A DNA stretch of 64,000 bases from Marivirga arenosa (GTDB lineage Bacteria > Bacteroidota > Bacteroidia > Cytophagales > Cyclobacteriaceae). Numbering within the stretch: the stretch's first letter is position 1; each line of letters begins with the position of its first letter. A program made the position numbers and the translations under genes. The DNA is taken from assembly GCF_030503875.2 (NCBI RefSeq), contig NZ_CP129968.2, forward strand, positions 1,321,001 through 1,385,000, given 5' to 3'. The notes below the pieces were generated by a model. It saw only the letters and a program-made list of their open reading frames with translations, was not told where the DNA came from and did not search any database. Of the stretch, positions 35,787 through 59,391 are shown one piece after another.

Positions 35787-35814
35787 TGTCTAAACCTTAT
35801 GTGTGTTTGTCTAA
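35787..35814 (+). promoter_or_regulatory. LytTR-type direct repeat 1 (before the outer-membrane gene)
   Basis: TGTCTAA occurs at 35787-35793 and again at 35808-35814, exactly 21 bp apart; the match extends upstream to GTTTGTCTAAA in both copies. Two direct repeats two helical turns apart is the classic binding pattern of LytTR-domain regulators such as AgrA and AlgR. A possible -33 TTG (35823-35825) and -7 TTGATTTG (35843-35850) follow, so the site lies where an activator would touch RNA polymerase. Confidence 0.75.
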
Positions 35815-35918
35815 ATATATTGTTGATCAGTTTAATTTAGTCTTGATTTGAGTAATAGTTAAGAGGAAAATGTAGGATCCTCTTACTTATCTTCAGTAAA
35901 ACTCAAATATTGACAAAT

Positions 35919-38357
35919 ATGAAATTTTCAATTCAGTTTCAGCAATTCATTTACAGATCCTTTCTTTTTTTAATTCTGCTCTTAATGGGGTTCACGGGTA
36001 AGGCACAAAATATAATTACTGGAAAAGTTTTAGAAGCTGCAGAAATAGGAATACCCTTTGCCAGTGTAGCTTTATTAAATGCAAATGATAGTTCTATAGT
36101 AAAAGGGGCCATAACGGGAGAAGATGGTATTTACAAGATAAGATCAATACCTACAGGTAATTATTTTCTTTCTGTCACTTTTATTGGATATGAAAAATTT
36201 ATAGGTTCAGTTTTTCTATTTTCAGGAGGGACATTTGAATTAGAGCCAATTACATTGGTGCAATCAGTACAAGCCTTAAATGAGGTTACAGTCTCTGGAA
36301 AACGTCAGGTTCTTGAAAGAAAAACGGATAGATATGTAATGGACGTAACAGCCAGTACATTCCAGTCAGATAATATCATGGATATTTTTTACGCACTTCC
36401 TTTTGTGCAAGTTAAGAGCGATGGTATTTCTGTTAATGGTAAAGGTGGTATACTAATCTTACTGGATAAGGTACAGATGCCTCAAGCATCACTAAATTCT
36501 ATTTTAACTTCTATGACTGGAGATGAGATTGAGAATATTGAATTCATCACAAATCCTTCATCTAGGTATCCGTCTGATATTAGCACAGTTATTAAAATAA
36601 CTACAAAGCGATCAAAATATTATGGACTAACGGGTTCTGCTAGAACTGCATTATCACAAGGGATTTACGGGAAAGCTTCTTTAGGAACGTCTTTAACTTA
36701 CAGAAAGAAAAAATGGGTCACAAACATTAATTTAAATCAAAGGTCTGGGTCTTCCTTTACAGAAACCAATAATGAAAGGATTTTAAATATTGACGGTAAT
36801 CAAATATTACTTGATGGAGATTACAAGACTAAGAATGTGTACAATAAGCCATCATTGAGAGCTGCTATTGATTATACTATAAATAAATCAAATTCTATAG
36901 GTTTGCAGTCAAATGTAAATTACACGAAGACATCCAGAGACTCTTTTTTTAAAAATAGCACTGATTTTATTTCAGAGTCTGGAACGGTCGATTCTGTTCT
37001 CAGAATGGAAAGTTTTGATTTTGGAAGTGAGATGATTCAGAATTATAGCATGTATTACAATCATAAACTGGATACTCTTGGTAAATCCGTTGATTTTATT
37101 TTCACATATACACCGGTCAATATCAATGACGGAACTGAGATGCTGTACCAGAGGCTTCTAACCCCAACTGAGGAAGTACTTTCAGAACTTCCGATTGCAA
37201 GAAATACAAATAGAAATCAAGCAAATATTTTCGTGGGCCAGATGGATTGGGAGCTACCGTTTCAGAATGGGTTAAGGCTAATAACAGGTGGTAAGGTAAC
37301 TAAATCTGTGAATGACACAAAACCTGCTCAGGACATAAAGGTTGGCAATCAGTTCATTGGGGTAGAGGATTTTACCTTTCAAAACAAGTTTCAAGAAAGT
37401 ATTCTAGCCTACTATACAGACATAAATAAGGCTTTTGGAGAAAGAATAAATATTAGTGCGGGTTTACGAATGGAATATTCCAGAATGATCGTAGATAATC
37501 TAACTGCTAATCAAAGGGAATTGGACAGAGAGTTTACTGACTTTTTCCCAAATGTGAGAGTTGATTATTTTGCATCGCAGATGCTGCAGCTGTCAGCAAA
37601 TTATCGTAGGACTATCCAACGCCCGGGTTTTTCTACTCTAACTCCCTTCAGAAATTATGTGGATGATTATACAATTATAGAAGGAAACCCAGGTCTTTTA
37701 CCTGCTTATGAAAATACGCTTTCAGTAAATATGATTTTAGGGGGTATGCTTTATGTTGAAGCAGCATATAGTGATCAGAAAGATTCATATACACAGCTTC
37801 CACGTGCAGATGGTGATGTAACTATCTGGAGAGATACAAATTTTGATCTTACCTCCTATAGTCTTCTCGGAAATATGGGATTTCAGATTACAAACTGGTG
37901 GACAGGTAGTGTTTTTGCATATGGTGCCTTAATGGAATCCGCCATAGGTCAAGAGGGTTTTAATATTATTGATATTCCTCTGGGTATTTATCATACTTTC
38001 GGTCTTGAAAATAGCTTTAATTTACCTGCTGGTCTCAAACTGGAAACAACAATAAATTATACGGGGCCTGTACAATTAGGCTTGGTAGAAGCTATTTCTA
38101 ATAATTATACGCGGCTTGCACTTAAGGGTAGTCTTTTCAATGATAAACTAAATTACACCCTTTCAGCTATGGATTTTTTTAGAGGTGATATGTCAGGTGC
38201 AAATATCAATTCTTATAATATGGAAACGCGTGTAAAAACCTATTCTGATGCAAGACGAATTCAGCTAGGTTTAGTTTACAGATTCGGTAAAAATACAGTG
38301 AGAGAAGCTAGAAATAAAGAGCTGGGTAATGAGGATGTTGTGAATCGAGTAGATTAA
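35919..38357 (+). CDS. outer-membrane beta-barrel protein with CarboxypepD_reg-like domain
   Basis: This protein has 812 residues from the ATG at 35919; the TTG at 35910 is unlikely. A signal peptide ends at about residue 30 (GKAQ), followed by a carboxypeptidase-regulatory-like Ig domain (ITGKVLEAAEIGIPFASV, about 32-115), a plug-like region (about 120-225) and a long outer-membrane barrel of the OMP_b-brl_3/TonB-dependent-receptor type. It differs from SusC by length and lacks the SusD partner. A LytTR repeat pair lies just upstream and the lanthipeptide genes follow, so it is likely part of that regulon. It might serve peptide passage through the outer membrane, uptake, or self-protection; sequence alone does not decide. 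Confidence 0.85.
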   Translation: MKFSIQFQQFIYRSFLFLILLLMGFTGKAQNIITGKVLEAAEIGIPFASVALLNANDSSIVKGAITGEDGIYKIRSIPTGNYFLSVTFIGYEKFIGSVFLFSGGTFELEPITLVQSVQALNEVTVSGKRQVLERKTDRYVMDVTASTFQSDNIMDIFYALPFVQVKSDGISVNGKGGILILLDKVQMPQASLNSILTSMTGDEIENIEFITNPSSRYPSDISTVIKITTKRSKYYGLTGSARTALSQGIYGKASLGTSLTYRKKKWVTNINLNQRSGSSFTETNNERILNIDGNQILLDGDYKTKNVYNKPSLRAAIDYTINKSNSIGLQSNVNYTKTSRDSFFKNSTDFISESGTVDSVLRMESFDFGSEMIQNYSMYYNHKLDTLGKSVDFIFTYTPVNINDGTEMLYQRLLTPTEEVLSELPIARNTNRNQANIFVGQMDWELPFQNGLRLITGGKVTKSVNDTKPAQDIKVGNQFIGVEDFTFQNKFQESILAYYTDINKAFGERINISAGLRMEYSRMIVDNLTANQRELDREFTDFFPNVRVDYFASQMLQLSANYRRTIQRPGFSTLTPFRNYVDDYTIIEGNPGLLPAYENTLSVNMILGGMLYVEAAYSDQKDSYTQLPRADGDVTIWRDTNFDLTSYSLLGNMGFQITNWWTGSVFAYGALMESAIGQEGFNIIDIPLGIYHTFGLENSFNLPAGLKLETTINYTGPVQLGLVEAISNNYTRLALKGSLFNDKLNYTLSAMDFFRGDMSGANINSYNMETRVKTYSDARRIQLGLVYRFGKNTVREARNKELGNEDVVNRVD

Positions 38358-38381
38358 GTAAAGTTGATTTAAAGAAAACCC

Positions 38382-39341
38382 ATGAATGAAATTTATAGAC
38401 TAAATCGCTCGATTTCTTCAAGCGATAGAAAATATGATTACAACAAGGTAAAGGATTTTTTACTAAAACAGCAATTGGATCAATTAGAATTAGGAGATGA
38501 ACCATCAGGTATATATTCTAAGTTTAGTACTGAGATTCTATGCATCAATAAATCAATGTTTAATAAAGATGCAAACTACACAATTCTAATTTCAAATCTC
38601 AATGCTATTCAATCAGAGGTTAAACATAATTTGATAATAGATAAGGGTTTAAAAATATATATTACCGTTGAATTGCTACCAAAACTTTCTTATTGTCTTT
38701 ATAAGTTAGGTAAATATGAGCAGGCAGAACAAGTGATAAGGGAGCACTTAGTATTAAGTGAATACCTAATAAATCGTAAAGCTACATTTGTGTTTTTCAA
38801 CTTATTAGAGCAAATCTTAAACCTGAATAAGGTTTTAATTGCGCAAAATAAAGTTAGAGAAGCTCTATCAAACTGGCAAGAGCTTTTCAAATTTATGATT
38901 ATGGGACAGGAAAGTAAAATTGTATATTTAAATACAGGCTCTGGAATTGTCAACACAGGTTTACCGAAAATTTTAAAGGAGTACTCTATTCTGAACTTTC
39001 TTAAAGTTTATATAGCAGGTCAACTTGAATTTGGAGTCTATCCTACTGTTAACGTCATTTTTCGGGATTGGTTTAATAATATGGATGTAAGTACCAGTGA
39101 GCGTTTAGCAATCTATAGATATATATCAATACTTGAAGCAAACGAAAACGGAACTTTAAATCATGTAATGAAAGACATTATAGAATTCTCTCATGTGTTT
39201 GAAGGAAGAAATTATCTCATCTTGAGACATTCATTAAATAATGTACTTATTGAAAAGATAGAAAAAGAGTATTCAAATCATCACAAAAAGGCAGAGATGA
39301 TTGATTTTATAAAAGATAGCTTAAAAGTAGTAGGTACATGA
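38382..39341 (+). CDS. protein of unknown function in the lanthipeptide cluster
   Basis: This 319-residue protein is soluble, without a signal peptide or membrane helix. Its sequence looks all-helical with TPR-like character in the middle (LLPKLSYCLYKLGKYEQAEQ near 105 and KVLIAQNKVREALSNWQEL near 155), but no family was recognised. The gene starts 24 bases after the outer-membrane gene and 115 bases before the first LanC-like gene, so it probably shares the first LytTR-controlled transcript. A scaffold, regulator or modification partner would all fit. Confidence 0.6.
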   Translation: MNEIYRLNRSISSSDRKYDYNKVKDFLLKQQLDQLELGDEPSGIYSKFSTEILCINKSMFNKDANYTILISNLNAIQSEVKHNLIIDKGLKIYITVELLPKLSYCLYKLGKYEQAEQVIREHLVLSEYLINRKATFVFFNLLEQILNLNKVLIAQNKVREALSNWQELFKFMIMGQESKIVYLNTGSGIVNTGLPKILKEYSILNFLKVYIAGQLEFGVYPTVNVIFRDWFNNMDVSTSERLAIYRYISILEANENGTLNHVMKDIIEFSHVFEGRNYLILRHSLNNVLIEKIEKEYSNHHKKAEMIDFIKDSLKVVGT

Positions 39342-39456
39342 GATCGATCTTCATTTTGGTTTGATGATCTATTTGTAAAAGCAACATATATGTAAGACTA
39401 AAAGAAGACTTCATCAAGAAACTGATTAGTTTCCAATCATATAAAGATATAAGTAA

Positions 39457-40677
39457 ATGAGAATTACAAATTGCCATTCATTGGAGTTAAACGATTGTCA
39501 AAATTTTGATGAATTAAGTTCTTTAATTGATCGTATTGAAAAAGCAGTGGATGCTAATATTTTTCATTTGAATAATGGTACAATAAGTCATGGATGGCTG
39601 GGAGCATCAATGTTTTATTTTTATTATGCTCAGTTTAAACGTGAAGCTCATTTTTCTGAAAAGGCAGAAATTTACTTAAGTAAAGCACTCAAGCATTCAT
39701 CATATAAATATTATGAAAATAAATATCCCACTGACTCTTATGATGCAAATCTTGCCTGTTTAGGGATTTTCTTAAATAAGGCATCTGAAAATAATTTATT
39801 GAATTTCGATCCTCAAGAATATTTAGAAAGTATAGAAGCAATGCTTCATCAACTATGTAGAAATAAAATCAAATTTTCTGATTTTAGCATTTTTTCTGGC
39901 GCATTAGCAACTGGTAATTTTTTACTTAATACGTCACCTTCAGAAAATAACAATATTCTTTTAACACAGATTGTAAATGCGATCGAAGCAAATGCTATTT
40001 CAGATGATTCTGATGGAATCTATTGGAGTAGCCCTCGCTTATATGATAGGATTTATTTAGGCCTATCTCATGGCTCTTGCATGATCATTTCTTTTCTTTC
40101 GGATGTGTATGCACGTGGTTTAGCTCAGGAAAAATGTAAGAAATTAATAAATGGAGCAATTAATTTTGTACTGAAGCATAAATCAAATAATCTAGGTGAG
40201 ATTTTTCCTCATTTTATACATGAAAAGAAACTACAAGCTCAGTTTACCCTTTGCTACGGGGACTTGGGAGTTGGTTACAGTTTATTGAAGGCAGCAAAAA
40301 TTTTAGCTGATAGATCTGTTTTGAAAGAAGCTAATGAAATACTAAGAGCTTGTAATAGTATTAAGTTTGAAAGTATGCTGACATTTGATGCTAGCATTAC
40401 CTACGGAGCTTCTGGAATTGCTCTATTGTATGAGAGATTAGCTCGCTTGGAGCCTAAAAACCTAGAGTATTGGAGAGCCTACCAATACTGGATGGAGGTA
40501 ATTCCACGCTATTCCTTGTCTGAAAATAGTTATTGCGGATTCCAATCTCATTTTGCTACTGAATCAGATATCTTTAATCTATCCTATGATTGGGGAATCA
40601 TGGGAATCGGTATTACTTTAATGAGGTATTTAGATGGTAGTTTACCAGACATGGAGGGGATTTCGCGTGGGATTTAA
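39457..40677 (+). CDS. LanC-like cyclase 1, zinc site incomplete
   Basis: This 406-residue protein has the alpha/alpha-toroid pattern of LanC lanthionine cyclases, with repeated glycine-rich turns (SHGWLGAS, LSHGSCM, CYGDLGVG, TYGASGIA, DWGIMGIG). LanC normally holds zinc with one cysteine in a WCYG motif and a Cys-His pair in a CHG motif. Here the first cysteine remains (LCYGD, C266) and the conserved histidine in LSHG is present (H205), but the CHG position reads T315-Y316-G. Two of three zinc ligands are therefore gone, so it may be a pseudoenzyme that binds substrate or partner, or a cyclase with another mechanism. It overlaps or abuts the second LanC gene. Confidence 0.82.
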   Translation: MRITNCHSLELNDCQNFDELSSLIDRIEKAVDANIFHLNNGTISHGWLGASMFYFYYAQFKREAHFSEKAEIYLSKALKHSSYKYYENKYPTDSYDANLACLGIFLNKASENNLLNFDPQEYLESIEAMLHQLCRNKIKFSDFSIFSGALATGNFLLNTSPSENNNILLTQIVNAIEANAISDDSDGIYWSSPRLYDRIYLGLSHGSCMIISFLSDVYARGLAQEKCKKLINGAINFVLKHKSNNLGEIFPHFIHEKKLQAQFTLCYGDLGVGYSLLKAAKILADRSVLKEANEILRACNSIKFESMLTFDASITYGASGIALLYERLARLEPKNLEYWRAYQYWMEVIPRYSLSENSYCGFQSHFATESDIFNLSYDWGIMGIGITLMRYLDGSLPDMEGISRGI

Positions 40678-41848
40678 TATTAATTACTCAAGCATGGAAA
40701 TTGATGACTTTGCAGCCAGCATGTATAAGTTATGCGATTATAAAATTGATGAACCTGATTATCTATTAACTGGTAATCTAGGTAAAGTATTATCTCTATT
40801 AAATTTAGCAGAGTACCATAAAGATGAATATTATTATGATACTGCGATTAGTCATTTGAACCAGGTAATAAAAAGAATAGGAGATGACCAAGGAGTTAAA
40901 TTTACGAATGCAATTAGCAACGGTCTGGGCGGACTAGGATTCTGTTTATTGTTTTTACAGAGGAGTAGTTTTTCAGACCCTTCTAACAAGGGTTCTGAGT
41001 TGCTTTCATGGATAGCAGATCAGGTTTACAAGCAGTCAAAATCTCAGATCGCAGAGTCAGATTTTGATACTAATTATTCAGCAATAGGAGGGATTAACTT
41101 CTTAACTAAATATCATAGTAATATATATCAAGATTATGACCGATTAGATAATTTAGCAGATCTTTTATATTCACAAATAAATGATTTTAATTTTGGTCGA
41201 GTATTAGCTAACAAGCGGTATCAAGAGGGTGGTAAATATCATATTCAACTAGGAATAGCGCACGGTGTTAGTGGAATAGTCTTAAGCTTACTAGCGCTTC
41301 AAAAAGTTGTAAATAACAAAAAGATTGATGAAATGATCCGTCTATCACTGGAGTTTTTAGCGTCTTTCTATAAACCATACCATCAGAATGAACAATGTTT
41401 TTTATTTCCTAGGTCAGTAACCTTGGAAGGAAAACCTCACCTTCAAGAAAAAACAACTGCTAATATTGGTTGGTGCAGTAGTGATTTATCTGTTGCATAT
41501 ACTTTTTTACTAGCTGGTAAACAGCTTGGTCAGGAACGAATATTCCAATTTGGAAATGAGGTCTTATCAGATTTTTTAAAATTTGATCCTGATCTTTTAC
41601 CAATTGTTGATATAAACTTATGTCATGGATTTGCCGGTTTCTCTTTAATATTCAAAAGCTGTGCAGATTTAACAAATAGAGATGATGCACGCATGGCTGC
41701 TTATTCTTACAGAATAAAAACTATAGAAAATTTGGGAAGGAGGTCCCATGATAACTTCTGGTTTGGAAAGTTAGGTGCCTACAATGTTATTATAAATGAA
41801 ATAGTAGGAGATAAGTTAGGGTGGAATGAATTATTATTTCAAAATTAA
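40667..41848 (+). CDS. LanC-like lanthionine cyclase 2
   Basis: This LanC-family protein has about 393 residues. The frame is open from an ATG at 40634, but the GTG at 40667 follows a GGAGGGG stretch and leaves an 11-base overlap with the previous gene; ATG at 40694 is a third option. Zinc ligands are complete: C270 in GWCSSD and C319-H320 in LCHGFAG; the acid/base histidine is H199 in IAHGVSG. It should therefore join cysteine thiols to dehydrated Ser/Thr to make lanthionine rings. It is more divergent than the third cyclase (WCSS rather than WCYG). A flavin enzyme gene follows after 11 bases. Confidence 0.82.
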   Translation: MGFNINYSSMEIDDFAASMYKLCDYKIDEPDYLLTGNLGKVLSLLNLAEYHKDEYYYDTAISHLNQVIKRIGDDQGVKFTNAISNGLGGLGFCLLFLQRSSFSDPSNKGSELLSWIADQVYKQSKSQIAESDFDTNYSAIGGINFLTKYHSNIYQDYDRLDNLADLLYSQINDFNFGRVLANKRYQEGGKYHIQLGIAHGVSGIVLSLLALQKVVNNKKIDEMIRLSLEFLASFYKPYHQNEQCFLFPRSVTLEGKPHLQEKTTANIGWCSSDLSVAYTFLLAGKQLGQERIFQFGNEVLSDFLKFDPDLLPIVDINLCHGFAGFSLIFKSCADLTNRDDARMAAYSYRIKTIENLGRRSHDNFWFGKLGAYNVIINEIVGDKLGWNELLFQN

Positions 41849-41859
41849 TTACTACTAAG

Positions 41860-42768: not shown

Positions 42769-43024
42769 AATATATTTCTTCGATAAAGAGTAACTTAAGA
42801 CTTTTGATTTCTATAGCGGGAAATAATCATCTTAATTTATAAGGTTCATTGATTTTGATGAAGAAGGATAACTCTTGAATAGCATTCAAAATATCGGGGT
42901 ATTTTTGACGCATAGAATACTCTTCATTATTTAACGACCTCATTTTTACTTAGGAAGTGTTTGTGATACTTATTTTACAATTAGATTATTAAGATTTTAA
43001 GACGGAATCTATAAATTATTTACA

Positions 43025-44194: not shown

Positions 44195-44995
44195 GCCACT
44201 CAGTTTGAATACCAGCTCTATATTTTTGTAAATAAAGATTATTTTCTAGTTTACAGTGTATCTGTTTCAAATATACTTGCAAAACTTTCACTTACCGCTG
44301 ATCTCGAAATTTCGCAGATATCTCAAAAAATTCTTATCTACTTGTTAATTAAGTAGTGCCTACCATTAAGTCTATCATTCCTTTGGTAACCTGTTAATAA
44401 CAACTTTTCAATTTTAAAAAATAGTCATTCAATAATATAAATTTATCAGGGAGTAGATTGGAGCAAGAAATGTGTTTTATGGTTTGCCATAGAAAAAAGG
44501 AATAAAAGAAGACGGGACTTAATAGTAATTTCACACAAGTTTTAGTTTGCTAGCGCAAAATTGAATTCCATTGATGAATGCATTCACTCCTTCTCATTTC
44601 TTACTGTAGTAAAATGAAAGTCCTATTTGATTATCCTAGGTGGAGATTTCTGTGTTACTACAAAATCTTGTTTGTAATATGGGCTCTTCTGAAAGCCTTT
44701 TTTATTTTCTAGTATTTTCTTCCTCAGACAGATTTTTTTGTCGATTAAATCTTCCGAATATTGTTAAGAATTCACAAAATAGTGGTGCAAATTATTTCTA
44801 TTTCTGAATAGAAAACTCAGCTCAACAAAACTGCTTATTACTTCGACCAATTTTAAATAAGTGATTTTCACTAATACGTCTAACGCTATTACCACTATGT
44901 CTAAATATTTATGTGTAGGTCAAAAGAAGTGAGATATTTCGAATGTTATTTGATCAATAGCACAAAAAAAATTTAAACCATTAAATTATTTAAAA
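44195..44995. other. 801-base intergenic region before the lanthipeptide precursor
   Basis: This is the longest gap in the window. Its last 120 bases contain the second LytTR-type repeat pair and the leader of the precursor gene. The rest is AT-rich, with a few very short reading frames (the longest hydrophobic one, 32 codons, at 44614-44712) that I cannot support as genes. No hairpin typical of a riboswitch or tRNA was recognised. Confidence 0.5.
44877..44904 (+). promoter_or_regulatory. LytTR-type direct repeat 2 (before the lanthipeptide precursor)
   Basis: CGTCTAA at 44877-44883 and TGTCTAA at 44898-44904 are exactly 21 bp apart, as at the other three sites. The second copy is 98 bases before the precursor ATG. 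An ATTT lies 38 bases after the start of the second copy, the same offset as in sites 1 and 3, and may be part of the -7 element. Confidence 0.78.
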
Positions 44996-45220
44996 ATGAA
45001 AAAGAAGAAAAATTTAAACCCGCTTGAATTAGACAAAGAAACAATTGCAAAATTAGACGAAAAGCAATTAGAATCACTAGCTGGTGGTAAAAATGACCCT
45101 GATGAGCAAGATGAGGCTACATGTTTCCTAACTAATATCAGAATTAGTTTACGTAAATGTGGTGACGAATCACTTGATAGAGAAGGAGGATGTTGTAATA
45201 CAACTGTTATAGCAGAATAA
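44996..45220 (+). CDS. class I lanthipeptide precursor (GG-leader type)
   Basis: This 74-residue peptide starts with a lysine-rich segment (MKKKKNLNPLELDKETIAKL) typical of Bacteroidota class I lanthipeptide leaders, ending in the double-glycine cleavage site LAGG (residues 30-31). After it comes an acidic stretch, KNDPDEQDE (32-40), then a region with cysteines at 43, 55, 66 and 67 and Ser/Thr at 42, 46, 51, 59, 69 and 70. LanB would dehydrate some of the Ser/Thr and LanC would link them to the cysteines, giving up to four rings. The exporter's C39 domain would cut after GG. LytTR repeats lie upstream and a weak terminator follows, typical of high precursor expression. Confidence 0.88.
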   Translation: MKKKKNLNPLELDKETIAKLDEKQLESLAGGKNDPDEQDEATCFLTNIRISLRKCGDESLDREGGCCNTTVIAE

Positions 45221-45243
45221 GCATTTTCTTTTAGTCACAAAAT

Positions 45244-45280
45244 AAGGCTGCCAAATTTGGTAGTCTTGTTTTCTATTTTT
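45244..45280 (+). terminator. partial terminator between precursor and LanB genes
   Basis: A 9-bp stem with two G-U pairs (45244-45252 with 45259-45267) and a 6-nt loop is followed by a T-rich tract (GTTTTCTATTTTT). Its modest stability suggests attenuation, so that more precursor than modification enzyme is made, as in other lantibiotic operons. Confidence 0.6.
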
Positions 45281-45292
45281 AAACCTATTGGG

Positions 45293-50948: not shown

Positions 50949-50976
50949 CGTCTAAGCTTTTAAGGCATTTGTCTAA
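50949..50976 (+). promoter_or_regulatory. LytTR-type direct repeat 3 (before the Cys-free GG peptides)
   Basis: CGTCTAA at 50949-50955 and TGTCTAA at 50970-50976 are exactly 21 bp apart. The pair lies 12 bases after the protease stop and 52 bases before the next peptide gene, indicating a separate promoter for the peptide/exporter part of the cluster. Confidence 0.78.
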
Positions 50977-51027: not shown

Positions 51028-51222
51028 ATGAAAATATTTAAGAAAACAAACAGGAAGAAGAATATTTCGGAGTTTAATGGAGTTTTGCTTGATTCTGATC
51101 AAGCTGCGAAAATGAGCGGAGGTTTTAAGGAGTACAAACCTGAGATTTATCAAAGTTATAAATTTAAAAGGCGTAAGGCAATGTTGTCTGATTTGTTCGG
51201 AGCTGGAGATGAAAACATTTAA
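51028..51222 (+). CDS. GG-leader peptide without cysteine (precursor 2)
   Basis: This 64-residue peptide has a basic N-terminus (MKIFKKTNRKKNISEF), then a short leader ending in KMSGG (residues 28-32), the double-glycine site expected by the C39 exporter two genes downstream. The remainder, FKEYKPEIYQSYKFKRRK and a short tail, has 32 residues, several aromatic and basic residues, two serines and no cysteine. It cannot form lanthionine. It could be an unmodified bacteriocin, an inducing peptide for the adjacent two-component system, or a dehydrated peptide. A LytTR repeat pair directly upstream supports expression. Not assignable to a known family by eye. Confidence 0.7.
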   Translation: MKIFKKTNRKKNISEFNGVLLDSDQAAKMSGGFKEYKPEIYQSYKFKRRKAMLSDLFGAGDENI

Positions 51223-51233
51223 AAGAGAAAAAA

Positions 51234-51407
51234 ATGAAAAAAAGTAAGACGAGTAGAAAGAATATTAAAGAATTGAAAAAACTAGGTCTTTTTGGAGATT
51301 CTGAAAAAGATTTAAATGAAAAGGACATGGACAGCTTAGGAGGTGGAAAAGGTGACACTACAGTGGATACACAATGGCCAACGGTTAGTGGTCAAAAAAA
51401 TGACTAA
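51234..51407 (+). CDS. 57-residue GG-leader peptide without cysteine (precursor 3)
   Basis: This 57-codon frame, below the usual length cut-off, starts with ATG at 51234 after an AGAGAAAAAA stretch and ends nine bases before the exporter ATG. The translation begins MKKSKTSRKNIKEL, runs through an acidic helix (DSEKDLNEKDMDS) and reaches LGGG at residues 35-38. The predicted product, KGDTTVDTQWPTVSGQKND or with one more Gly, holds four Thr and one Ser but no Cys. The leader form and tight spacing between precursor 2 and the exporter strongly suggest a real exported peptide. It might be dehydrated by a LanB without ring formation. No family recognised. Confidence 0.75.
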   Translation: MKKSKTSRKNIKELKKLGLFGDSEKDLNEKDMDSLGGGKGDTTVDTQWPTVSGQKND

Positions 51408-51415
51408 TATTTATC

Positions 51416-53701
51416 ATGCACTCAAAATTCAAATTTTATAAGCAACTTGATTATATGGATTGTGGTCCCACTTGTTTGAGGATGGTGAGTGCTTTCTATG
51501 GAAATGAATATACTTTAGATTATTTGAGGTCAATTTCTCATATAACTAAAAATGGAGTTAGTTTTCTTGGTTTGAGTGAAGCTGCTGAGAAAATAGGTTT
51601 TAGAACATTAGTAGGGAAAATATCCTATGAGCAATTGAAGGAAGAGGTCCCTTTACCATGTATTCTTCACTGGAATCAGGATCATTTTGTGGTTCTTTAT
51701 GATGTTAAAGAAAAAAATGCTTTTAGAAAAAAGGATAAACTTGTTATCGGTGATCCAGGTCATGACCTAGTAGAGGTGGATGCAGAAACCTTTAAGAAAT
51801 GCTGGATTAGTACTGAAGATGGAAAAGGAGTTGCATTATTAATGGAAACAACCCCTGAATTTTATTCCTATAATCAGGACAACAGTGGAGCTTCTAAAAG
51901 TAAGGATGTAAGTAGTATTGGATTTTTGTTGCAGTACCTTAGGCCTTATAAATCCTATTTTTTTCAAATATTTCTTGGCATGATTCTGTCGAGTTTTATA
52001 AGCATGTGCTTTCCATTTTTAACACAAAGTTTGGTGGATTTTGGAATAAATAAACAAAATGTAGATTTCGTTTACCTTGTTCTTATTTCTCAACTAAGTC
52101 TCTTTTTGGGAGGTGTATTTGTTAATTTGATTCGAAACTGGATCCTTCTTCATGTCAGTACCCGAATTAGTATCACTATAATCTCAAATTTTCTTATCAA
52201 ATTGATGAAATTACCTATCAATTTCTTCGAATCGAAAAATATTGGAGACATCACACAACGAATAAGTGATCATCACCGGATAGAAAGCTTTCTCACAGGG
52301 TCCACATTAAGTACACTGTTCTCAATTATCAATTTGATTATATTTTCGATAGTACTAGGTATTTATGATCTCAGATTCCTTTTAATATTCTTTATTGGAA
52401 GTGCAATTTCAGTAGGCTGGATTTTCTTATTCCTCAAGAAAAGAAGAGATATAGATTATAATAGATTTCAGAGAGGTAGAGAAAATCAAAATAGCATTTA
52501 CGAGATCATTACGGGAATGCAAGAAATTAAACTATACAATAGCCAAAAATCAAGGAGATGGGAATGGGAAAGAATTCAATCAAAGCTTTTTAAAATAAAT
52601 ATCAAGAGCCTGGCATTAGAACAATACCAGGAAATAGGGTCAACATTTTTCACTCAGCTAAAAAATATTTCTATTTCTTTCATGGCAGCAATACTGGTAA
52701 TAAATGGTCAAATCACCTTAGGAGTAATGCTTAGTATATCCTATATCATTGGGCAGATGAATGGACCTTTGAACCAACTTATTCAATTTGTTAGAACAAT
52801 TCAAGATGCAAAAATTAGTCTTGAGAGATTGGGAGAGATTCACAACAAACAAAATGAAGAGAAAAGTGATGATACTCAGTCAGCAGATTTGAATGAAGAA
52901 AGCTTTGGTCACTCTTTAAATCAGGTGTTTTTTGCCAAAGGCCTTAATAGTCAGTTTAAATCTGGGATCAGCTTGGATAACGTTAGCTTCCGATATGGGT
53001 CTGAGAAATCATCTATGGTTTTGAAAAACTTGAATTTGCATATTCCTAAAGGTAAAGTAACAGCAATTGTAGGGGAAAGCGGTAGCGGAAAAACAACCCT
53101 TTTGAAACTGCTACTGAAATTCTATACTCCAACGGAAGGAAATATATCTGTAGATGGTAGTAATTTGAACGATATTTCAGCAAAACTGTGGAGGAATCAA
53201 TGTGGAACTGTAATGCAAGATGGGTATATATTTTCAGATTCTATAGCGCGCAATATCGCTCTAGATGGTAAAAACATAGATGAGGTGAAATTAATGAATG
53301 CCGTACACGTAGCAAATGCGCATGAGTACATATCTCAGCTGCCATTAGGCTTCACTACCCGCATAGGTAACACAGGTTCAGGTTTAAGCGGTGGCCAAAA
53401 ACAGCGGATTTTTATAGCCAGAGCAGTTTATAAAGAGCCTAATTATATGTTTTTTGACGAAGCTACTAGTGCATTAGACTCCAATAATGAAAGTATTATA
53501 ATGGAAAATTTGGATGAGTTTTATAAAGGAAGAACAGTCTTGGTCATTGCCCACAGGCTAAGTACCGTTAAAAAAGCTGATCAAATTATTGTAATGAAGC
53601 AGGGAGAAATAGTGGAGCAAGGCACACATATCAGCTTGGTTAATCAAGGTGGTTATTATTATGAGCTTGTAAAAAATCAATTAGAACTCGGAGCAGCTTA
53701 A
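51416..53701 (+). CDS. peptidase-containing ABC exporter (C39 domain)
   Basis: This 761-residue protein processes and exports GG-leader peptides. The N-terminal C39 peptidase (residues about 5-150) has C16 in MDCGPTCL, H90 in NQDHFVV and D113 in GDPGHDL, a complete papain-like site that cuts after double glycine. The membrane domain (about 165-460) is followed by the ATPase with GESGSGKT, LSGGQKQRIFIARA and MFFDEATSALD. In Bacteroidota such exporters handle class I lanthipeptides in place of LanT. It lies nine bases after precursor 3 and upstream of a short HlyD-like partner. The likely substrates are the lanthipeptide and the two Cys-free peptides. Confidence 0.94.
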   Translation: MHSKFKFYKQLDYMDCGPTCLRMVSAFYGNEYTLDYLRSISHITKNGVSFLGLSEAAEKIGFRTLVGKISYEQLKEEVPLPCILHWNQDHFVVLYDVKEKNAFRKKDKLVIGDPGHDLVEVDAETFKKCWISTEDGKGVALLMETTPEFYSYNQDNSGASKSKDVSSIGFLLQYLRPYKSYFFQIFLGMILSSFISMCFPFLTQSLVDFGINKQNVDFVYLVLISQLSLFLGGVFVNLIRNWILLHVSTRISITIISNFLIKLMKLPINFFESKNIGDITQRISDHHRIESFLTGSTLSTLFSIINLIIFSIVLGIYDLRFLLIFFIGSAISVGWIFLFLKKRRDIDYNRFQRGRENQNSIYEIITGMQEIKLYNSQKSRRWEWERIQSKLFKINIKSLALEQYQEIGSTFFTQLKNISISFMAAILVINGQITLGVMLSISYIIGQMNGPLNQLIQFVRTIQDAKISLERLGEIHNKQNEEKSDDTQSADLNEESFGHSLNQVFFAKGLNSQFKSGISLDNVSFRYGSEKSSMVLKNLNLHIPKGKVTAIVGESGSGKTTLLKLLLKFYTPTEGNISVDGSNLNDISAKLWRNQCGTVMQDGYIFSDSIARNIALDGKNIDEVKLMNAVHVANAHEYISQLPLGFTTRIGNTGSGLSGGQKQRIFIARAVYKEPNYMFFDEATSALDSNNESIIMENLDEFYKGRTVLVIAHRLSTVKKADQIIVMKQGEIVEQGTHISLVNQGGYYYELVKNQLELGAA

Positions 53702-53710
53702 TCAAAGAAT

Positions 53711-54442
53711 ATGCCAATTGATAACTCACTAAATTCAGAGCAACAAAGCCATGAAATGGAAGAGATTGTAGGTAAAGTCCCAAACTGGATTACCAGGTGG
53801 GGAATTACAGTCTTATTTTTTGTAGCTTTAATTGGTGCTTTTATAAGTGCCTTCATACAGTTTCCTGATACTATATCTGCAGATGTCATTATACAGGCTT
53901 TGGAGCAACCAGGAAAGGTCTCTTTAACGAGAGATGATGCAAGTCAAGAATTTATATTCATGGTTAAAGATGAAGATTTTGTTAAACCTGGTGACACTCT
54001 ATTTATTCATAAGAATGATAAGCTCAAAATCAATAAACCGATCATTACTCCAATGTCTGGACAAGTTTTTATCACAAAAGGAATTGATGCCGATAATACT
54101 CAAGATTATCTTGTTTGGGTGGTTCCTAAAACCACAGATTTCGAAGTCAAATTAAAGTATCCCTTAAAAGGATCTGGAAAAATTGAAAATGGTCAAGAAG
54201 TTGTTATTAATATTCAGAATTATCCACCCTCAGATTTTGGATATTTGACAGGTAAAATAAGCAAAATATTACCAGTGCCCCTAGAGGGACAAATGCAGGC
54301 ATATGTAAAATTAGATAGTATGAAATTGAAAACAAACACTGGTAAAATATTGCCACTAGATTATTTAATGGAGGGAAAAGCTGAAATAATTTTAGAGAAT
54401 AGGACTATTGCAAAAAGAATATTTGGTAATATTTTACCTTAA
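53711..54442 (+). CDS. short HlyD-like membrane-fusion protein
   Basis: This 243-residue protein has one N-terminal membrane helix (about 30-52) followed by a periplasmic part whose layout (SADVIIQALEQPGKV, PMSGQVF near 118, VINIQNYPPSDFGYLTGKI near 168) matches the lipoyl/beta-barrel parts of HlyD adaptors. Normal HlyD proteins have around 400 residues with a long alpha-helical hairpin between lipoyl halves that docks a TolC-type channel. Here that hairpin is absent, since the lipoyl region runs directly on. It starts ten bases after the exporter gene. It may connect to a different outer-membrane route or act as a membrane-proximal helper. Confidence 0.78.
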   Translation: MPIDNSLNSEQQSHEMEEIVGKVPNWITRWGITVLFFVALIGAFISAFIQFPDTISADVIIQALEQPGKVSLTRDDASQEFIFMVKDEDFVKPGDTLFIHKNDKLKINKPIITPMSGQVFITKGIDADNTQDYLVWVVPKTTDFEVKLKYPLKGSGKIENGQEVVINIQNYPPSDFGYLTGKISKILPVPLEGQMQAYVKLDSMKLKTNTGKILPLDYLMEGKAEIILENRTIAKRIFGNILP

Positions 54443-54512
54443 TATTTAATCAGTTTAGGTTTTATAGCATTTAATTCTTTAATTGGGATTAATTTCTTTA
54501 GAACCAAAACCT

Positions 54513-57500
54513 ATGCAATGCTTACGATATTTCAGCCAAACTTTAGAAAGAAGGCCTCTTTTTCCATATAATTTACACTTAAATAAACCGTACAAAGTAA
54601 CCGTTTTTCATAATAAGTGGTTTGAGGAGCTCATTTACTGGTCATCTCCTCATTTATTCAAAGAATTACTAAAACTTAAAGCTGGTAGTCTAAAATCCGA
54701 AAAAGAAGGTAAAGTACTTAGGAGTCTGTATAGCTATTTAGTTAGATCTTATTCAAGACCAACTCCTTTTGGTATTTCAGCAGGCTTTTCTTTAGCAAAT
54801 CTAAAGTATTATAATAAGAAAATCCTAAATTCTGGTAAAATAGGAAGTGCTAACCCATCTTACTATAAGAGATTAGTTTCTCCTGATATTAGATTTTTCT
54901 CCGCCTTACTGAATTACATATTAGACAAAACTGAGATTTTCGAAAAAATACGATATTTTCCAAATCCTTCAATTTATAAATTGGGAAATACTTTTAGGTT
55001 TCATGAACAATTATCCAATGGGGAGTATAGAATTTCCACAATAGAGGTTGATTCAGTTATCGAGAAATTACTTCACGAAATAGACATGAAGGGTGCTACA
55101 TTTCATAATATTCTAGATTTACTTGGTAGCGACTTTGATTTCAAGGAGAGAAAAATTTTTGTAAAAGAACTTATTGCTGAAAATGTATTAATCAATGAAT
55201 TTCAATATTATAAATTAGATCAAAACGCGTTAAATAACCTGATTGACTTGCTTAAATCAGAAACCACAGAAGTTTCTTTATATCTACTTAATTTATTGAT
55301 TTTATATCAAGGACTAATTAACAAACTTGAGAATTCTGAATTAGGTGATTATTTCTATGAAGAAATCGAAAAACTGAAAGAAGACTTTATACCAATAGTC
55401 GGTTCGGCTAACGTAGAAAATATGTTTCATATTGATTTAATGTTGCCTACATCCAACAGCGCTGTTAATGAGAAGGATCTTAAATTGATATCCGATGCAG
55501 TTGAAAACTTAAGTAAAATTTTAAAGCCTCGGAACTTCATAAACGAAACTGTTGAGGAGTTTAAAAAAGCATTTTTTTCGAGGTATAACAATGAAATTAT
55601 CCCCTTACTAGCGACACTTGACAATGATACAGGCTTGGGATTTCCTGTTAATACCAATTTTGGAATGAATAATAATTCAGCGATCTTTGGGGATATTACG
55701 CTTTCAAATCAGAAAAAAACCAATGCATATCCAAAAATAGTTCCTTCTATTTTTAATAAAATCGAGAGTTTACAAGTACATGATAATGAAATCGATTTAA
55801 TTAACTTGGATTTAAGTGGGCATAAGAGCCAAATAAAACTATTACCTACTACTTTTTCTATTGTTGGTTCTAAACTACCAGACGGTCAAATTTTATTAAC
55901 AGCTATTTCAGGAACTTCTTCTCTTAATCTGCTTGGCAGGTTTTCGTATAAAAATGTTGATCTTGAGAACCTGTGTAAAGAAATACTAGACAAAGAAAGT
56001 AACAACAACAATTTAATATTTGCCGAAATAGTATTCATTCCTGAAGGTAAGGCTGGAAATATTGTAAAAAAGAAGATCGCATCAAAATATTATATTCCTA
56101 TTAATGCTGGTATTAAAATCCCAAACAAACAACCTATACCTCTGGATGATCTTTTTGTAACTATTGAAGATCACGAAATAGTCTTGTTATCAAAAAAGCT
56201 GAACAAGCGAGTGATTCCACGCTTGTCTTCTGCTCATAATTTTGAAAACTCTTCATCGGTTATTTATAAATTTCTCTGCAGTATACAATGCAAAAACTCT
56301 TCTAGTATCTTGACTGAGAGCTTATTTAAATTAGAAGGATTCAAAAGAGGCCCAAGGATAAAATTTAAAAACCTTATACTTCAACCAGCTTGGTGGAAAT
56401 TAAGTACCGCAGAACATAGACATTTATTTAAGGAGAAATTCGATCTTCAATCATTTAAGAACTTTATTTGTGATCTGAATCTTCCCGAAACCATTGCTGT
56501 AAAGAAAGGAGATAATGAGTTGCCATTAAGATTATCTGATGAAATAAGTTTAAGAATACTTTGGGATCACTTGAGAAAAGATAAGAATATTGAAGTAATT
56601 GAGTGGTTACATTTTGATAATACTAATACAAACGAACAGAAATTCACTAACCAGTTTATTCTTTCCTTGTATCAAGAAGATAAGAAAGAATCTATAGAAA
56701 GAAATTGGTTTTCAAATAATAGTTCAAGAAGATACTTTCTACCAGGCACTGAAGTTATTTCACTTAAAATATATTGCGGTTCTTTTATATCCGACCACTT
56801 GTTAGAACTTATTTTGAATAGATTAGGAGAGGAGGTTGCAGATAACCAAACAGTAAATAAATTCTATTTTGTAAGATATACAGATCCACACTATCATTTA
56901 CGCATAAGGTTTTTTCTAAAAGATTATTCTCATAAAACCTATTTGCAAGTATTTAGCAGTTTAATGGAACAAATTCATGTATATAAAGAAGAAGGTTTGA
57001 TTTGGAAGATTGAGTTAGATACCTATGAGAGAGAACTAAAAAGGTATTCTCCTCTAGACATTGAATTAGTAGAAAGTATTTTTTATCACGATTCGAAATG
57101 CTTTTTGTATTGTCTTGAAGAAATCTCAAACAACGATAGTGACTTAATTAGAATTGTTCTAGGAGTACATAACCTTCAAAGTTGGCTTGATTTAATAGAT
57201 TTTGATGTTGATGAAAAAATTGGTTTTCTCGATGAACGCATAGCAGTTTTCAGAAATGAGTTTGAAGATGAAATTGACATAAATCAAGTTAATGATCTGA
57301 ATAGTAAATATCTGGAAGAATATCAGGTTTTTGAAGAAAGTAAAATATTGGATTTATTAAGATCTCGAAACGCCCGTATAAAGGAAGTTTTATTACAATG
57401 CAATACCAATAAAGAGGAGCTAACTTTAGTTTTAAAAGATTTGATTCATATGAGCCAAAATCGTTTCTTTTCAACGGCACAAAACTTGAACGAATATATT

Positions 57501-57554
57501 GTATATGAATTAGCGAAAAAGGTTAATAATAAAATGAAATTTTTACAGAACTAA
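54513..57554 (+). CDS. lantibiotic dehydratase LanB 2, full length
   Basis: This second class I dehydratase has 1013 residues from ATG 54513 (MQCLRYFSQTLERRP), aligned with the start of LanB 1; the TTG at 54483 is unlikely. The glutamylation domain (LVRSYSRPTPFGISAGF near 75, LNKRVIPRLSSAHN near 565) and the elimination domain (FYFVRYTDPHYHLRIRF near 785, HMSQNR near 980) are both present. It is clearly diverged from LanB 1 though sharing the same architecture. Two complete LanBs in one cluster suggest separate substrates or ordered dehydrations; the nearby Cys-free peptides are candidates. It ends two bases before the kinase gene. Confidence 0.9.
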   Translation: MQCLRYFSQTLERRPLFPYNLHLNKPYKVTVFHNKWFEELIYWSSPHLFKELLKLKAGSLKSEKEGKVLRSLYSYLVRSYSRPTPFGISAGFSLANLKYYNKKILNSGKIGSANPSYYKRLVSPDIRFFSALLNYILDKTEIFEKIRYFPNPSIYKLGNTFRFHEQLSNGEYRISTIEVDSVIEKLLHEIDMKGATFHNILDLLGSDFDFKERKIFVKELIAENVLINEFQYYKLDQNALNNLIDLLKSETTEVSLYLLNLLILYQGLINKLENSELGDYFYEEIEKLKEDFIPIVGSANVENMFHIDLMLPTSNSAVNEKDLKLISDAVENLSKILKPRNFINETVEEFKKAFFSRYNNEIIPLLATLDNDTGLGFPVNTNFGMNNNSAIFGDITLSNQKKTNAYPKIVPSIFNKIESLQVHDNEIDLINLDLSGHKSQIKLLPTTFSIVGSKLPDGQILLTAISGTSSLNLLGRFSYKNVDLENLCKEILDKESNNNNLIFAEIVFIPEGKAGNIVKKKIASKYYIPINAGIKIPNKQPIPLDDLFVTIEDHEIVLLSKKLNKRVIPRLSSAHNFENSSSVIYKFLCSIQCKNSSSILTESLFKLEGFKRGPRIKFKNLILQPAWWKLSTAEHRHLFKEKFDLQSFKNFICDLNLPETIAVKKGDNELPLRLSDEISLRILWDHLRKDKNIEVIEWLHFDNTNTNEQKFTNQFILSLYQEDKKESIERNWFSNNSSRRYFLPGTEVISLKIYCGSFISDHLLELILNRLGEEVADNQTVNKFYFVRYTDPHYHLRIRFFLKDYSHKTYLQVFSSLMEQIHVYKEEGLIWKIELDTYERELKRYSPLDIELVESIFYHDSKCFLYCLEEISNNDSDLIRIVLGVHNLQSWLDLIDFDVDEKIGFLDERIAVFRNEFEDEIDINQVNDLNSKYLEEYQVFEESKILDLLRSRNARIKEVLLQCNTNKEELTLVLKDLIHMSQNRFFSTAQNLNEYIVYELAKKVNNKMKFLQN

Positions 57555-57556
57555 TT

Positions 57557-58630
57557 ATGGAATTAGTCGATAAATATTATGCTAGCATAAGGGTTGGATT
57601 TATAGTATTCATATATCTAGTTATATCGGTTTTTAATGCCTTACTCTTTCGTCTTGACTCCCTGCAGCTACAGTATTTTGTATACTGTCTGATTAATTTT
57701 GGACTGGTAATTTCTAGTTATTTGTTGATCTTTAGGGTTTTCAGGTTATCAATTTCTTTTACAATCAGGTTTGTTTTATTTATAATTCTACTTTATTGCC
57801 TCTACTATATAGTATTTGTACTCAGTATTTTTTCTTTAAATATCTTAGAATTGGGTTACCCAAAGAACGTTATGTTCCCTAAGCTGGATAAACTATATTC
57901 CTTTTCTTCTGTTGAAGAACTTTTTAATAGAGAGAAGTTCTCTTGGATGTCAGGGTATTTTTATTTTCATCTTCTAATTTTAATTACTGGAGGATTAGCT
58001 GATACGTATAGGTCATCACTAAAGAAAAATATGGAGTTACAAAAGCTTAACAGTAATCTGGAACTCGATATGCTTAAATCACAAATAGAACCTCATTTTC
58101 TCTTCAACACTTTAAATAATATATATAGACTTGTTATTGATAATGAGAAGGCTGCAAACACCGTACTAAAGTTGTCGGACTTATTAAGATTTACACTTTA
58201 TGAGAGTAATAATAAAGTGATTCCGATCAGTGATGAAATCCAATTTCTTGAAGATTATATTGAGCTAGAAAAAATTCGGCATCACGATAATGTTAGTATT
58301 TCATACGACTTCTCTGAAGTACAAAATGATAATTATAAAATCGCACCTCTACTGTTTGTGAATTTTATTGAAAATGCATTTAAACATGGTGTACATCATA
58401 CCATTGAAAATACATTTGTACTTATAATATTGAAACAGTGTAACGAAAACCTAGTTTTTACCATTAGTAATAAAATACCTTCCACCAAGAGAAAAACATC
58501 TAAAGCAGGAGGAATAGGCCTAGAAAATGTTTGCAGAAGATTAGAATTATTATATCCACATAAACATGAATTAATAGTAGAGAAAGAAAAAGATATTTTT
58601 ACTGTCAACCTTAAAATACAGATGATATGA
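57557..58630 (+). CDS. LytS-type sensor histidine kinase
   Basis: This 357-residue kinase has four membrane helices in its first 155 residues and then a His_kinase domain of the LytS/AgrC-like class: the phospho-acceptor H180 in IEPHFLFNTLNNIYRL and the ATP-binding N-box NFIENAFKHG, with GGIGLENVCRRL as G box. There is no large sensor domain, so the membrane part may sense a peptide or envelope state. It overlaps the response regulator by four bases and is two bases after LanB 2, so the two-component system is co-expressed with the biosynthetic genes. Confidence 0.9.
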   Translation: MELVDKYYASIRVGFIVFIYLVISVFNALLFRLDSLQLQYFVYCLINFGLVISSYLLIFRVFRLSISFTIRFVLFIILLYCLYYIVFVLSIFSLNILELGYPKNVMFPKLDKLYSFSSVEELFNREKFSWMSGYFYFHLLILITGGLADTYRSSLKKNMELQKLNSNLELDMLKSQIEPHFLFNTLNNIYRLVIDNEKAANTVLKLSDLLRFTLYESNNKVIPISDEIQFLEDYIELEKIRHHDNVSISYDFSEVQNDNYKIAPLLFVNFIENAFKHGVHHTIENTFVLIILKQCNENLVFTISNKIPSTKRKTSKAGGIGLENVCRRLELLYPHKHELIVEKEKDIFTVNLKIQMI

Positions 58631-59361
58631 ACTCGAATTTGAAATGCATTATTATAGACGATGAACCCTTTGCTCAAGATGTAATCGAAAAGCACTGTGA
58701 GAAAATACCCTTTGTCGAAGTTCTTAAAAAGTCAAATAATGCTATTGAGGGTTTGAAGGATATTGAAACTTTAAAACCAGATTTAGTTTTTATGGATATA
58801 CAGATGCCTACAATGAATGGTATTGAATTGATAAAAATACTAAACAATTTTAAGCCAAAAATTATCATTACAACAGCTTCAAAAGATCATGCTCTAGAGG
58901 GATATGAACTTGATGTTAGTGACTATTTGTTGAAACCTATATCATTTGAACGTTTTTTTAGAGCAGTTAATAAAGTATATAATTTATTAAAAGTTAATAT
59001 TAATTCTGTAGTTAAGGAAAGTAATGAGCAGGCTACATCAAACTCTTACTTCTGGGCCAAAGTGAATGGCAAACTATTACATATTAATTTTGAAGATGTT
59101 CTCTTAGTAAAAGGGATGAAAGATTATGTTCAAATCTTTTTGCGAGATAGAAAGATAATAACATATCTTACTATGAAACGAATATTAGAAATTTTACCTG
59201 AAAATGAATTCATGAGGGTAAGTAGGTCTTACATCGTTAAAATATCCTCAATTAGAGGAATAAATGGTAATATATTAGAGACTGTAACAGAGGAAGAGAT
59301 AATAATAGGGTCTACTTATAGAGACATTATAAAACATGAGGCAAATAAGTGGTTAAAATAA
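58627..59361 (+). CDS. LytTR-family response regulator
   Basis: This 244-residue regulator has a receiver domain (residues about 5-120, phospho-acceptor D57 in FMDIQMPTMNG, and KPI near 105) and a C-terminal LytTR DNA-binding domain (about 143-240; FEDVLLVKGMKDYVQIF and FMRVSRSYIVKI). LytTR proteins bind direct repeats spaced two helical turns apart. Four such repeat pairs in the cluster are obvious candidate targets. Its start overlaps the kinase stop, and a repeat pair begins three bases after its own stop. Confidence 0.92.
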   Translation: MNSNLKCIIIDDEPFAQDVIEKHCEKIPFVEVLKKSNNAIEGLKDIETLKPDLVFMDIQMPTMNGIELIKILNNFKPKIIITTASKDHALEGYELDVSDYLLKPISFERFFRAVNKVYNLLKVNINSVVKESNEQATSNSYFWAKVNGKLLHINFEDVLLVKGMKDYVQIFLRDRKIITYLTMKRILEILPENEFMRVSRSYIVKISSIRGINGNILETVTEEEIIIGSTYRDIIKHEANKWLK

Positions 59362-59363
59362 TA

Positions 59364-59391
59364 TGTCTACATTAAATTAACCTTCGTCTAT
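59364..59391 (+). promoter_or_regulatory. LytTR-type direct repeat 4 (before the 35-codon gene)
   Basis: TGTCTAC at 59364-59370 and CGTCTAT at 59385-59391 are exactly 21 bp apart. The pair differs from the others only in the last base of each copy. It lies between the regulator stop and the small gene at 59473, giving that gene its own regulated promoter. Confidence 0.7.

Follow-up and report, generated by a model that had tools for sequence, protein, structure and literature searches.

Phased GTCTA direct repeats as predicted operators of a LytTR response regulator in a lanthipeptide cluster of Marivirga arenosa

A class I lanthipeptide cluster of Marivirga arenosa (Bacteroidota) contains four sites in which the word GTCTA is directly repeated with a start-to-start distance of 21 bp. 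The comparison of genomes supports the view that these sites represent a single regulatory design, which recurs in other genera together with relatives of the LytTR response regulator (RR) encoded in the cluster. The cluster lies in a window of 64,000 nucleotides (contig NZ_CP129968.2, positions 1,321,001 to 1,385,000), and all window positions below are counted from its first letter. From the sites themselves, their spacing, their recurrence before the same classes of genes and a preferred promoter geometry, we infer that the repeats are probably operators bound by the RR encoded at 58627, which would activate four transcription units, its own included, and thereby generate positive feedback.

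The four pairs had been proposed in a sequence-only reading of the window, and all of them are present at exactly 21 bp. As proposed there, each lies upstream of a cluster gene, namely those for the outer-membrane protein (OMP), the lanthipeptide precursor, the Cys-free peptides with the exporter and a 35-codon gene, at distances (here and below from the first G to the ATG) of +131, +118, +78 and +108, respectively. The scores in the following list refer to a matrix described further below.

35787..35814, + strand: site 1, TGTCTAA / TGTCTAA, 131 bp upstream of the OMP gene ATG; matrix score 35.7, rank 1 in the window
44877..44904, + strand: site 2, CGTCTAA / TGTCTAA, 118 bp upstream of lanA; matrix score 20.2
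50949..50976, + strand: site 3, CGTCTAA / TGTCTAA, 78 bp upstream of the Cys-free peptide pair; matrix score 17.7
59364..59412, + strand: site 4, a triple in 21-bp phase, GTCTAC at 59365, GTCTAT at 59386 and ATCTAA at 59407; matrix score 15.5 at 59386

Counting both strands together, the exact pattern GTCTA-N16-GTCTA is found four times in the window, always on the + strand (G at 35788, 44878, 50950 and 59365), versus a mean of 0.08 and a maximum of 1 in 100 shuffled windows. The statement that the window has no further pair is correct for this exact word. When every 5-mer was examined at spacings of 20–22 bp in the 30–64 kb part of the window, with forward and reverse forms of a word counted together, GTCTA at 21 bp ranked top (4 versus 0.02 expected). 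Separately, GAAGA is over-represented at the 21-bp spacing in positions 1–30000 (5 pairs versus 0.18 expected), perhaps reflecting coding repeats. Site 1 is followed by a weaker third copy, GTTTAA at 35830–35835, another 21 bp downstream. Site 4 had been described as a diverged pair; the pair exists, but the site is better read as a triple, and since the matrix places it at 59386, the promoter-proximal pair is 59386/59407. Across all 4,048,213 bases of the genome, only five exact GTCTA pairs are found, four of them within this 24-kb stretch, and the pattern read backwards occurs 16 times (11 + 5). The fifth pair (G000:C1:2008685-2008710; locus L005, 1501) is located 85 bp upstream of the ATG of another LytS-like histidine kinase (HK), which is followed by an RR, and displays a TATGTTTA box at offset 55. 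Thus, the idea of a self-contained peptide regulon stands insofar as four of the five exact sites belong to the island, but similar pairs near other HK–LytTR genes indicate that the motif is not private to it.

A LytTR regulator is indeed encoded in the cluster, next to a kinase:

57557..58630, + strand: sensor histidine kinase, His_kinase (LytS-like) family (Pfam)
58627..59361, + strand: response regulator with LytTR DNA-binding domain (PF00072, E 5.8e-20; PF04397, E 2.9e-15)

The RR thus combines the receiver and LytTR domains expected of the regulator of a LytTR response-regulator regulon, and the column counts of the 34 curated sites described below give two direct TTnGTCKAA repeats of ~9 bp separated by a 12-bp spacer upstream of a promoter, as is also expected. 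The LytTR geometry recognized in the sequence-only reading agrees with published accounts, in which most LytTR direct repeats have a 12-bp spacer and lie just upstream of −35, and which describe autoregulation and control of bacteriocins (PMC6193735, as far as its text was available). For AgrA, repeats centred near −60 and DNA contacts through an FhRhHRS motif are described in the accessible part of PMC4227749. The corresponding motif is FMRVSRS in the window RR and FxR(V/I)xRS in its relatives, with the histidine present only in G402 among the 11 sequences aligned.

Site anatomy was derived from 34 curated sites, picked by us for their downstream genes; near copies (G386 7256 and P. indicus 13351) were excluded, Anditalea 17985, -22993 and -5426 were omitted because they have no clear gene, and the promoter-proximal pair was taken in arrays. 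Column counts gave TTnGTC(T/G)AA, a 12-bp spacer, a second TTnGTC(T/G)AA, an A/T-rich stretch and T-rich −7 columns, with an invariant T at offset 60. The −7 consensus TAnnTTTG is matched at 5 or more of 6 positions at offset 55 in 13 of the 34 sites and at offset 56 in 4, versus 0.31 per other offset. A fairer test is provided by 53 pairs from which duplicates were removed and which involved no gene-based choice: offset 55 accounts for 17 −7-like boxes of the same quality and offset 56 for 4, with no more than 5 at any other offset. In addition, TTG is often seen by eye near offsets 32–34, the place of the −33 box, which in Bacteroidota housekeeping promoters precedes the −7 box by ~20 bp. 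It appears that a Bacteroidota-like −7 box tends toward a fixed distance downstream of the repeats, although weakly in the window, where the best candidate follows site 1:

35843..35850, + strand: putative −7 box TTGATTTG, 5 of 6 matches to TAnnTTTG, offset 55 from site 1

Extra repeats also keep the phase, with copies at +42 in 5 of 32 sites and at −21 in 4 of 32, compared to at most 2 at other offsets. In locus L162 of G402 (17215–17147, − strand), GTC(T/G)A occurs four times, each copy exactly 21 bp from the next, upstream of a tiny gene and a LanB gene. The sites before the double-glycine (GG) peptides of G386 and P. indicus have one extra base, that is, a 22-bp spacing.

Matches to the RR at E up to 1e-58 are found in 10 out of 390 genomes of the order, including the window's own. 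Among 98 relatives there is one close orthologue, from Anditalea (G053, 67%), with further ones in Pontibacter. We read the surroundings of 12 relatives outside the window: G053, G386, P. indicus, G421, G402, G351, G323, G363, P. amylolyticus, G087, G201 and G396. In 10 of these, repeats precede recognizable cluster genes, and the gene classes behind them are OMPs, lanthipeptide precursors, Cys-free GG peptides with the exporter, and a tiny gene beside the HK/RR gene:

Upstream of the OMP gene: window +131; Anditalea +130, +126 and +124 (the last with one mismatch); G421 +116; G323 +88; G363 and P. amylolyticus +85
Upstream of lanA: window +118; G386 three times +118; P. indicus twice +117; G421 +111
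Upstream of lanB1: P. indicus +114
Upstream of Cys-free GG peptides: window +78; G386 +81; P. indicus +80; G421 +83 and +101; G402 +119; G351 +93
Upstream of the tiny gene (by eye): window +108; Anditalea +208 (after a 33-aa open reading frame); G386 and P. indicus +86; G421 +102; G402 +107; G351 +98; G323 +93; G087 +139

G402 and G351 have an additional site upstream of GG peptides with a ELTPEEAEELAGG leader, whereas the tabulated pairs Anditalea 17985, -22993 and -5426 and G087 3032 and 3482 have no recognizable cluster gene. In the window, Anditalea, G421, G402 and G351, repeats directly follow the RR gene. When 10 regions (window and nine relatives) were pooled, 37 GTC(T/G)A pairs were found at 21 bp, versus a mean of 1.48 at other spacings and a next highest count of 9 at 24 bp. 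In scans of all 5-mers, GTCTA at 21 bp was the strongest word in the 31.7-kb Anditalea contig (7 pairs) and second in G386, and GTCGA at this spacing came first in G087 (4 pairs) and second in G421 (3). A failure of conservation was considered when a strict GTCTA scan of loci L040–L119 returned L040 only, but was rejected once mismatches were allowed, which revealed GTCGA and ATCTA in L041, L042 and L045. The repeat word drifts from GTCTA to GTCGA, yet stays readable across genera. The Anditalea locus itself (L036/L037) appears to have been duplicated and to have decayed in part: it contains three OMP copies, three HK genes, one of them interrupted, and a truncated RR that is still followed directly by a repeat (L037 4262).

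Trained on 26 sites from other genomes, a matrix ranks window sites 1–4 at 35.7, 20.2, 17.7 and 15.5, the next place scoring 5.3; in 30 windows simulated and scored with the same matrix, the mean maximum was 8.0 and the largest 18.1. A composite DNA pattern run over the 390 genomes gave 20 matches in 18 genomes, the window not being among the 20. Seven of the 20 precede lanA, GG-peptide or tiny genes, two precede HK genes co-directionally, and 11 have HK, RR or Lan genes (E 1e-10) in their loci. Two more peptide loci, L187 and L189, came to light through the pattern alone. Among the genomes it picked out are G122, with a pair of Cys-free GG peptides, and G273, where a tiny gene lies between HK and LanB; neither genome is in the list of RR orthologues. 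With a repeat distance of 23 bp, which is not a multiple of the codon and hence a lenient control, there were 3 matches (reversed control 8), none of them near HK, RR or Lan genes. With direct repeats only, 0 of 22 loci from three Pontibacter genomes were near HK/RR; for the composite pattern, with G386 excluded, the count was 8 of 17 (Fisher 0.0004, for sets drawn from different genomes); the Anditalea loci of this control set had HK/RR nearby in 5 of 8 cases, one of them (L148) outside the cluster. In 74 more distant loci (L046–L119) there was no excess at 21 bp, with 19 pairs at this spacing, a mean of 8.5 and up to 33 at other codon-multiple spacings.

Taken as a mechanism, the repeats would be operator half-sites (TTnGTCTAA-like, with a 12-bp spacer) for the RR at 58627, located just upstream of Bacteroidota-type promoters that head four transcription units, the HK and RR genes included. 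The HK would sense a signal, conjecturally the mature product of the tiny gene, and phosphorylate the RR, which would then occupy neighbouring repeats along one face of the DNA, activating the four units. As site 3 would head the run of genes that ends with HK and RR, activation would extend to the regulator's own unit, amounting to positive feedback on the peptide cluster. From the first Cys-free peptide gene through the RR gene, the intergenic spacing is −4 to 40 bp, and therefore site 3 probably drives the RR gene; transcription from this site would then cover both HK and RR, and the regulator would drive its own expression.

The remaining features of the cluster, in order, are as follows.

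35910..38357, + strand: OMP_b-brl_3 outer-membrane barrel protein with a CarboxypepD_reg N-terminus (Pfam); ATG at 35919
38382..39341, + strand: 319-aa protein without a significant Pfam family (weak TPR, E 0.04)
39457-40677, 40634-41848 and 43025-44194, + strand: three LanC-like proteins, PF05147 in all three
41860-42768, + strand: luciferase-like oxidoreductase between the LanC genes; best NCBIfam match the MsnO8 family, below cut-off
44996..45220, + strand: lanA, 74-aa class I lanthipeptide precursor with GG leader (NCBIfam NF038153, E 3.2e-12)
45257-48493, + strand: LanB1 dehydratase (Pfam; PF04738/PF14028)
48490-50937, + strand: S9 prolyl-oligopeptidase-family protein (Pfam)
51028..51407, + strand: two Cys-free double-glycine peptides of 64 and 57 aa, the first with family in other Cytophagales
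51416-53701, + strand: C39 peptidase ABC exporter (Pfam)
53711-54442, + strand: HlyD-like protein (Pfam)
54483..57554, + strand: LanB2, second full-length dehydratase (PF04738/PF14028), ending 2 bp upstream of the HK gene
59473..59580, + strand: tiny gene of 35 codons with a degenerate class I lanthipeptide-type leader and a Cys-free core; candidate signal peptide
59603..59632, + strand: terminator-like hairpin and T-run downstream of the tiny gene (fold of 59590-59645: −15.5 kcal/mol, z −3.92)

The components of a class I lanthipeptide cluster are all present: a LanA leader (NF038153), LanB (PF04738/PF14028 in two proteins) and LanC (PF05147 in three). A luciferase-like enzyme is discussed in the context of Ser to D-Ala conversion in a lanthipeptide in the available text of PMC7268733. 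Between lanA and lanB1 there is a strong hairpin (45239-45272; fold of 45215-45285: −18.3 kcal/mol, z −3.88), perhaps a partial terminator setting the precursor above the enzyme. The Cys-free double-glycine family, represented by 51028-51222 and its relatives with cores GG(F/D)K(E/D)(Y/F)xP, counts 42 proteins in the database (E up to 0.01, including the query members); it has no Pfam domain, and its named members come from Spirosoma, Pontibacter, Arcicella and Pseudarcicella.

The tiny genes form a small family with lanthipeptide-like leaders; they lack a GG site for export, and we propose, as a conjecture, that they encode the signal. The 35-aa peptide of the window is identical to the Anditalea one at 9 of the first 13 residues. 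The LxLxKx5L leader is reported for class I precursors of Bacteroidetes (PMC7268733, in the part available). Inspection by eye shows an exact match for P. indicus, G386, G421 and G273, partial matches for others and a degenerate form in the window. The cores are short and mostly Ser/Thr-rich, and Cys is absent in 4 of the 9 compared, the window's included. No NCBIfam match at E up to 1 was obtained for the tiny peptides of the window, Anditalea and P. indicus. A family search of the database returned only 6 proteins, at least 4 of which are query members and the named ones of which are hypothetical proteins of Pontibacter, Spirosoma and Hymenobacter; thus, the family as detected is small. LanB1 has three matches each in P. 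indicus and G386 at E up to 1e-20 and none at this threshold, which leaves room for weaker dehydratases, in Anditalea (G101), G363 and P. amylolyticus (G100). G363 and P. amylolyticus keep OMP, HK and RR in a row with repeats upstream of the OMP gene, an arrangement suggesting that the barrel protein takes part in sensing, and Anditalea keeps a LanC-like gene and the tiny gene.

Several observations weigh against the RR at 58627 as reader of a dedicated set of operators. Among the 12 relatives, G201 lacks any pair and G396 has two weak ones; the weaker relatives L043, L044 and L046 (33–43%) show none or one weak pair; and the exact-word scan lists neither GTCTA nor GTCGA for P. indicus, G402, G351, G323, G363, G201 and G396. 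The window sites match the −7 box at only 5, 4, 4 and 3 of 6 positions. The score of site 4 is below that of the highest simulated window, the matrix favours site 1, its 26 training sites including three OMP promoters of Anditalea, and the fifth genomic site scores 5.7, less than another place (6.2) in its 19.9-kb stretch. Genome-wide, the composite pattern is not enriched, with 20 matches versus 30 (13 + 17, counted by hand) for the reversed control. The 27 weaker LytTR paralogue loci (L009–L035), meant as negatives, contain 9 GTC(T/G)A pairs at 21 bp versus a mean of 0.49 at other spacings, L014 and L019 among them being near-identical. Uniqueness of the repeats to the island was consequently rejected in favour of a shared LytTR code that is dense in these clusters.

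The paralogue loci also lend some weight to the idea that another LytTR regulator, for example the paralogue beside the fifth site, reads the repeats within a wider network without a closed loop. The fifth exact site does precede another HK–RR operon, and the RR query in its own genome gave 60 first-look candidates, of which 28 were scored and all 28 matched, so that another LytTR protein could bind the repeats. We nevertheless consider this unlikely, as the sites recur with the RR orthologue in other genera, directly follow the RR gene in five loci and are dense in RR-linked clusters such as the Anditalea contig. The RR might instead be a repressor, with the repeats serving as operators through which expression of the cluster is held off in the absence of the kinase signal; negative action is known for LytTR proteins, for instance for AgrA at bsaA according to the available text of PMC4227749. 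Here, however, the end of the pair lies ~5 bp before the presumed −33, leaving the −33 to −7 region free, a position of the kind published for LytTR activation (PMC4227749 and PMC6193735, in the parts available), which makes repression very improbable. Coincidence, that is, GTCTA pairs as ordinary promoter sequence or chance with no dedicated regulator, could appeal to the reversed control patterns, at least as frequent genome-wide, but is scarcely credible given the clustering, the recurrence of words and spacing across genera and the recovery of the sites by a matrix trained without the window. Overall, activation by the cluster's own regulator appears to be the probable arrangement, and the sequence-only reading was very probably right in naming this RR as the reader of the sites.

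For the tiny gene, the balance is different. It may equally well be a short or decaying lanthipeptide precursor, or non-coding, and no signal at all, which is compatible with operator function of the repeats. The degenerate leader in the window, the variable core and the meagre yield of the database search fit this possibility. By contrast, a tiny gene with a lanthipeptide-like leader follows the repeats in 9 of 11 tabulated genomes (by eye) and in L189, reached through the DNA pattern alone; some members are annotated as genes in public records; and the window copy has its own repeat array and is followed by a hairpin. Tentatively, and with less confidence than not, we suggest that the tiny genes encode a new Bacteroidota autoinducer: a short, Cys-poor or Cys-free peptide carrying a lanthipeptide leader, dehydrated by LanB where present, not ring-closed where Cys is missing, perceived through the barrel protein and the LytS-like kinase, and switching the regulon through the phased repeats, with Anditalea and the two Pontibacter as listeners to producers.

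Among known systems, agr of Staphylococcus likewise has two direct repeats upstream of a promoter, and here, too, an HK partner and a candidate peptide gene are found nearby. AgrA consists of a receiver and a LytTR domain, as does the cluster's RR. The agr repeat word is ACAGTTAAG, versus GTC(T/G)AA here, and the design described here differs further in its presumed Bacteroidota-type promoter and in having up to four phased repeats, as seen in G402. No AgrB family of Pfam was detected among the 20 cluster proteins scanned (E 0.001), the rest of the genome not being searched. In LytTR regulatory systems (LRS), a membrane inhibitor accompanies the regulator, in place of a receiver domain and a kinase. 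The cluster, with its receiver-domain RR and HK, falls outside the LRS definition. HdrRM/BrsRM and the LRS-like operons of Bacteroides do share with it LytTR direct repeats, mostly with a 12-bp spacer, just upstream of the promoter, but the Bacteroides repeats differ in being 11 bp long, with 11-bp spacers and another word, before TATCTTTG (PMC6193735, in the part available). Two-component control of a class I lanthipeptide cluster is also seen for nisin (NisK/NisR). There, the regulator NisR is outside the LytTR family and nisin serves as its own signal, whereas here a separate tiny gene is the candidate. Pinensin and genome-mined clusters of Bacteroidetes are similar in having LanA with an LxLxKx5L/GG leader, LanB, LanC and a C39 protease, but LanB is split there and full-length here (PMC7268733, in the part available); that portion describes no regulatory site, and the article does not mention LytTR. 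PMC10352776 notes that a RiPP cluster of Bacteroidales includes an HK/RR pair, and likewise does not use the word LytTR.

A literature search of open-licence PMC articles, with subscription journals mostly outside, did not find LytTR operators of Bacteroidota lanthipeptide clusters among the matches listed. To our knowledge, little is known about peptide signalling and its control in Bacteroidota. What is added here to the sequence-only reading is the preferred promoter geometry, the phased arrays, the drifting word shared across genera and the tiny-gene family beside kinase and regulator, which makes the peptide-signal hypothesis testable. A readable operator that recurs across genera is a handle for unannotated peptide genes, such as those of L187 and L189, and for trying to switch on silent clusters, and it lets the use of peptide signals by these bacteria be tested. 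If the autoinducer hypothesis is true, genomes that have the barrel, kinase, regulator and repeats but no detected LanB1 relative, namely Anditalea and the two Pontibacter, would respond to producers.

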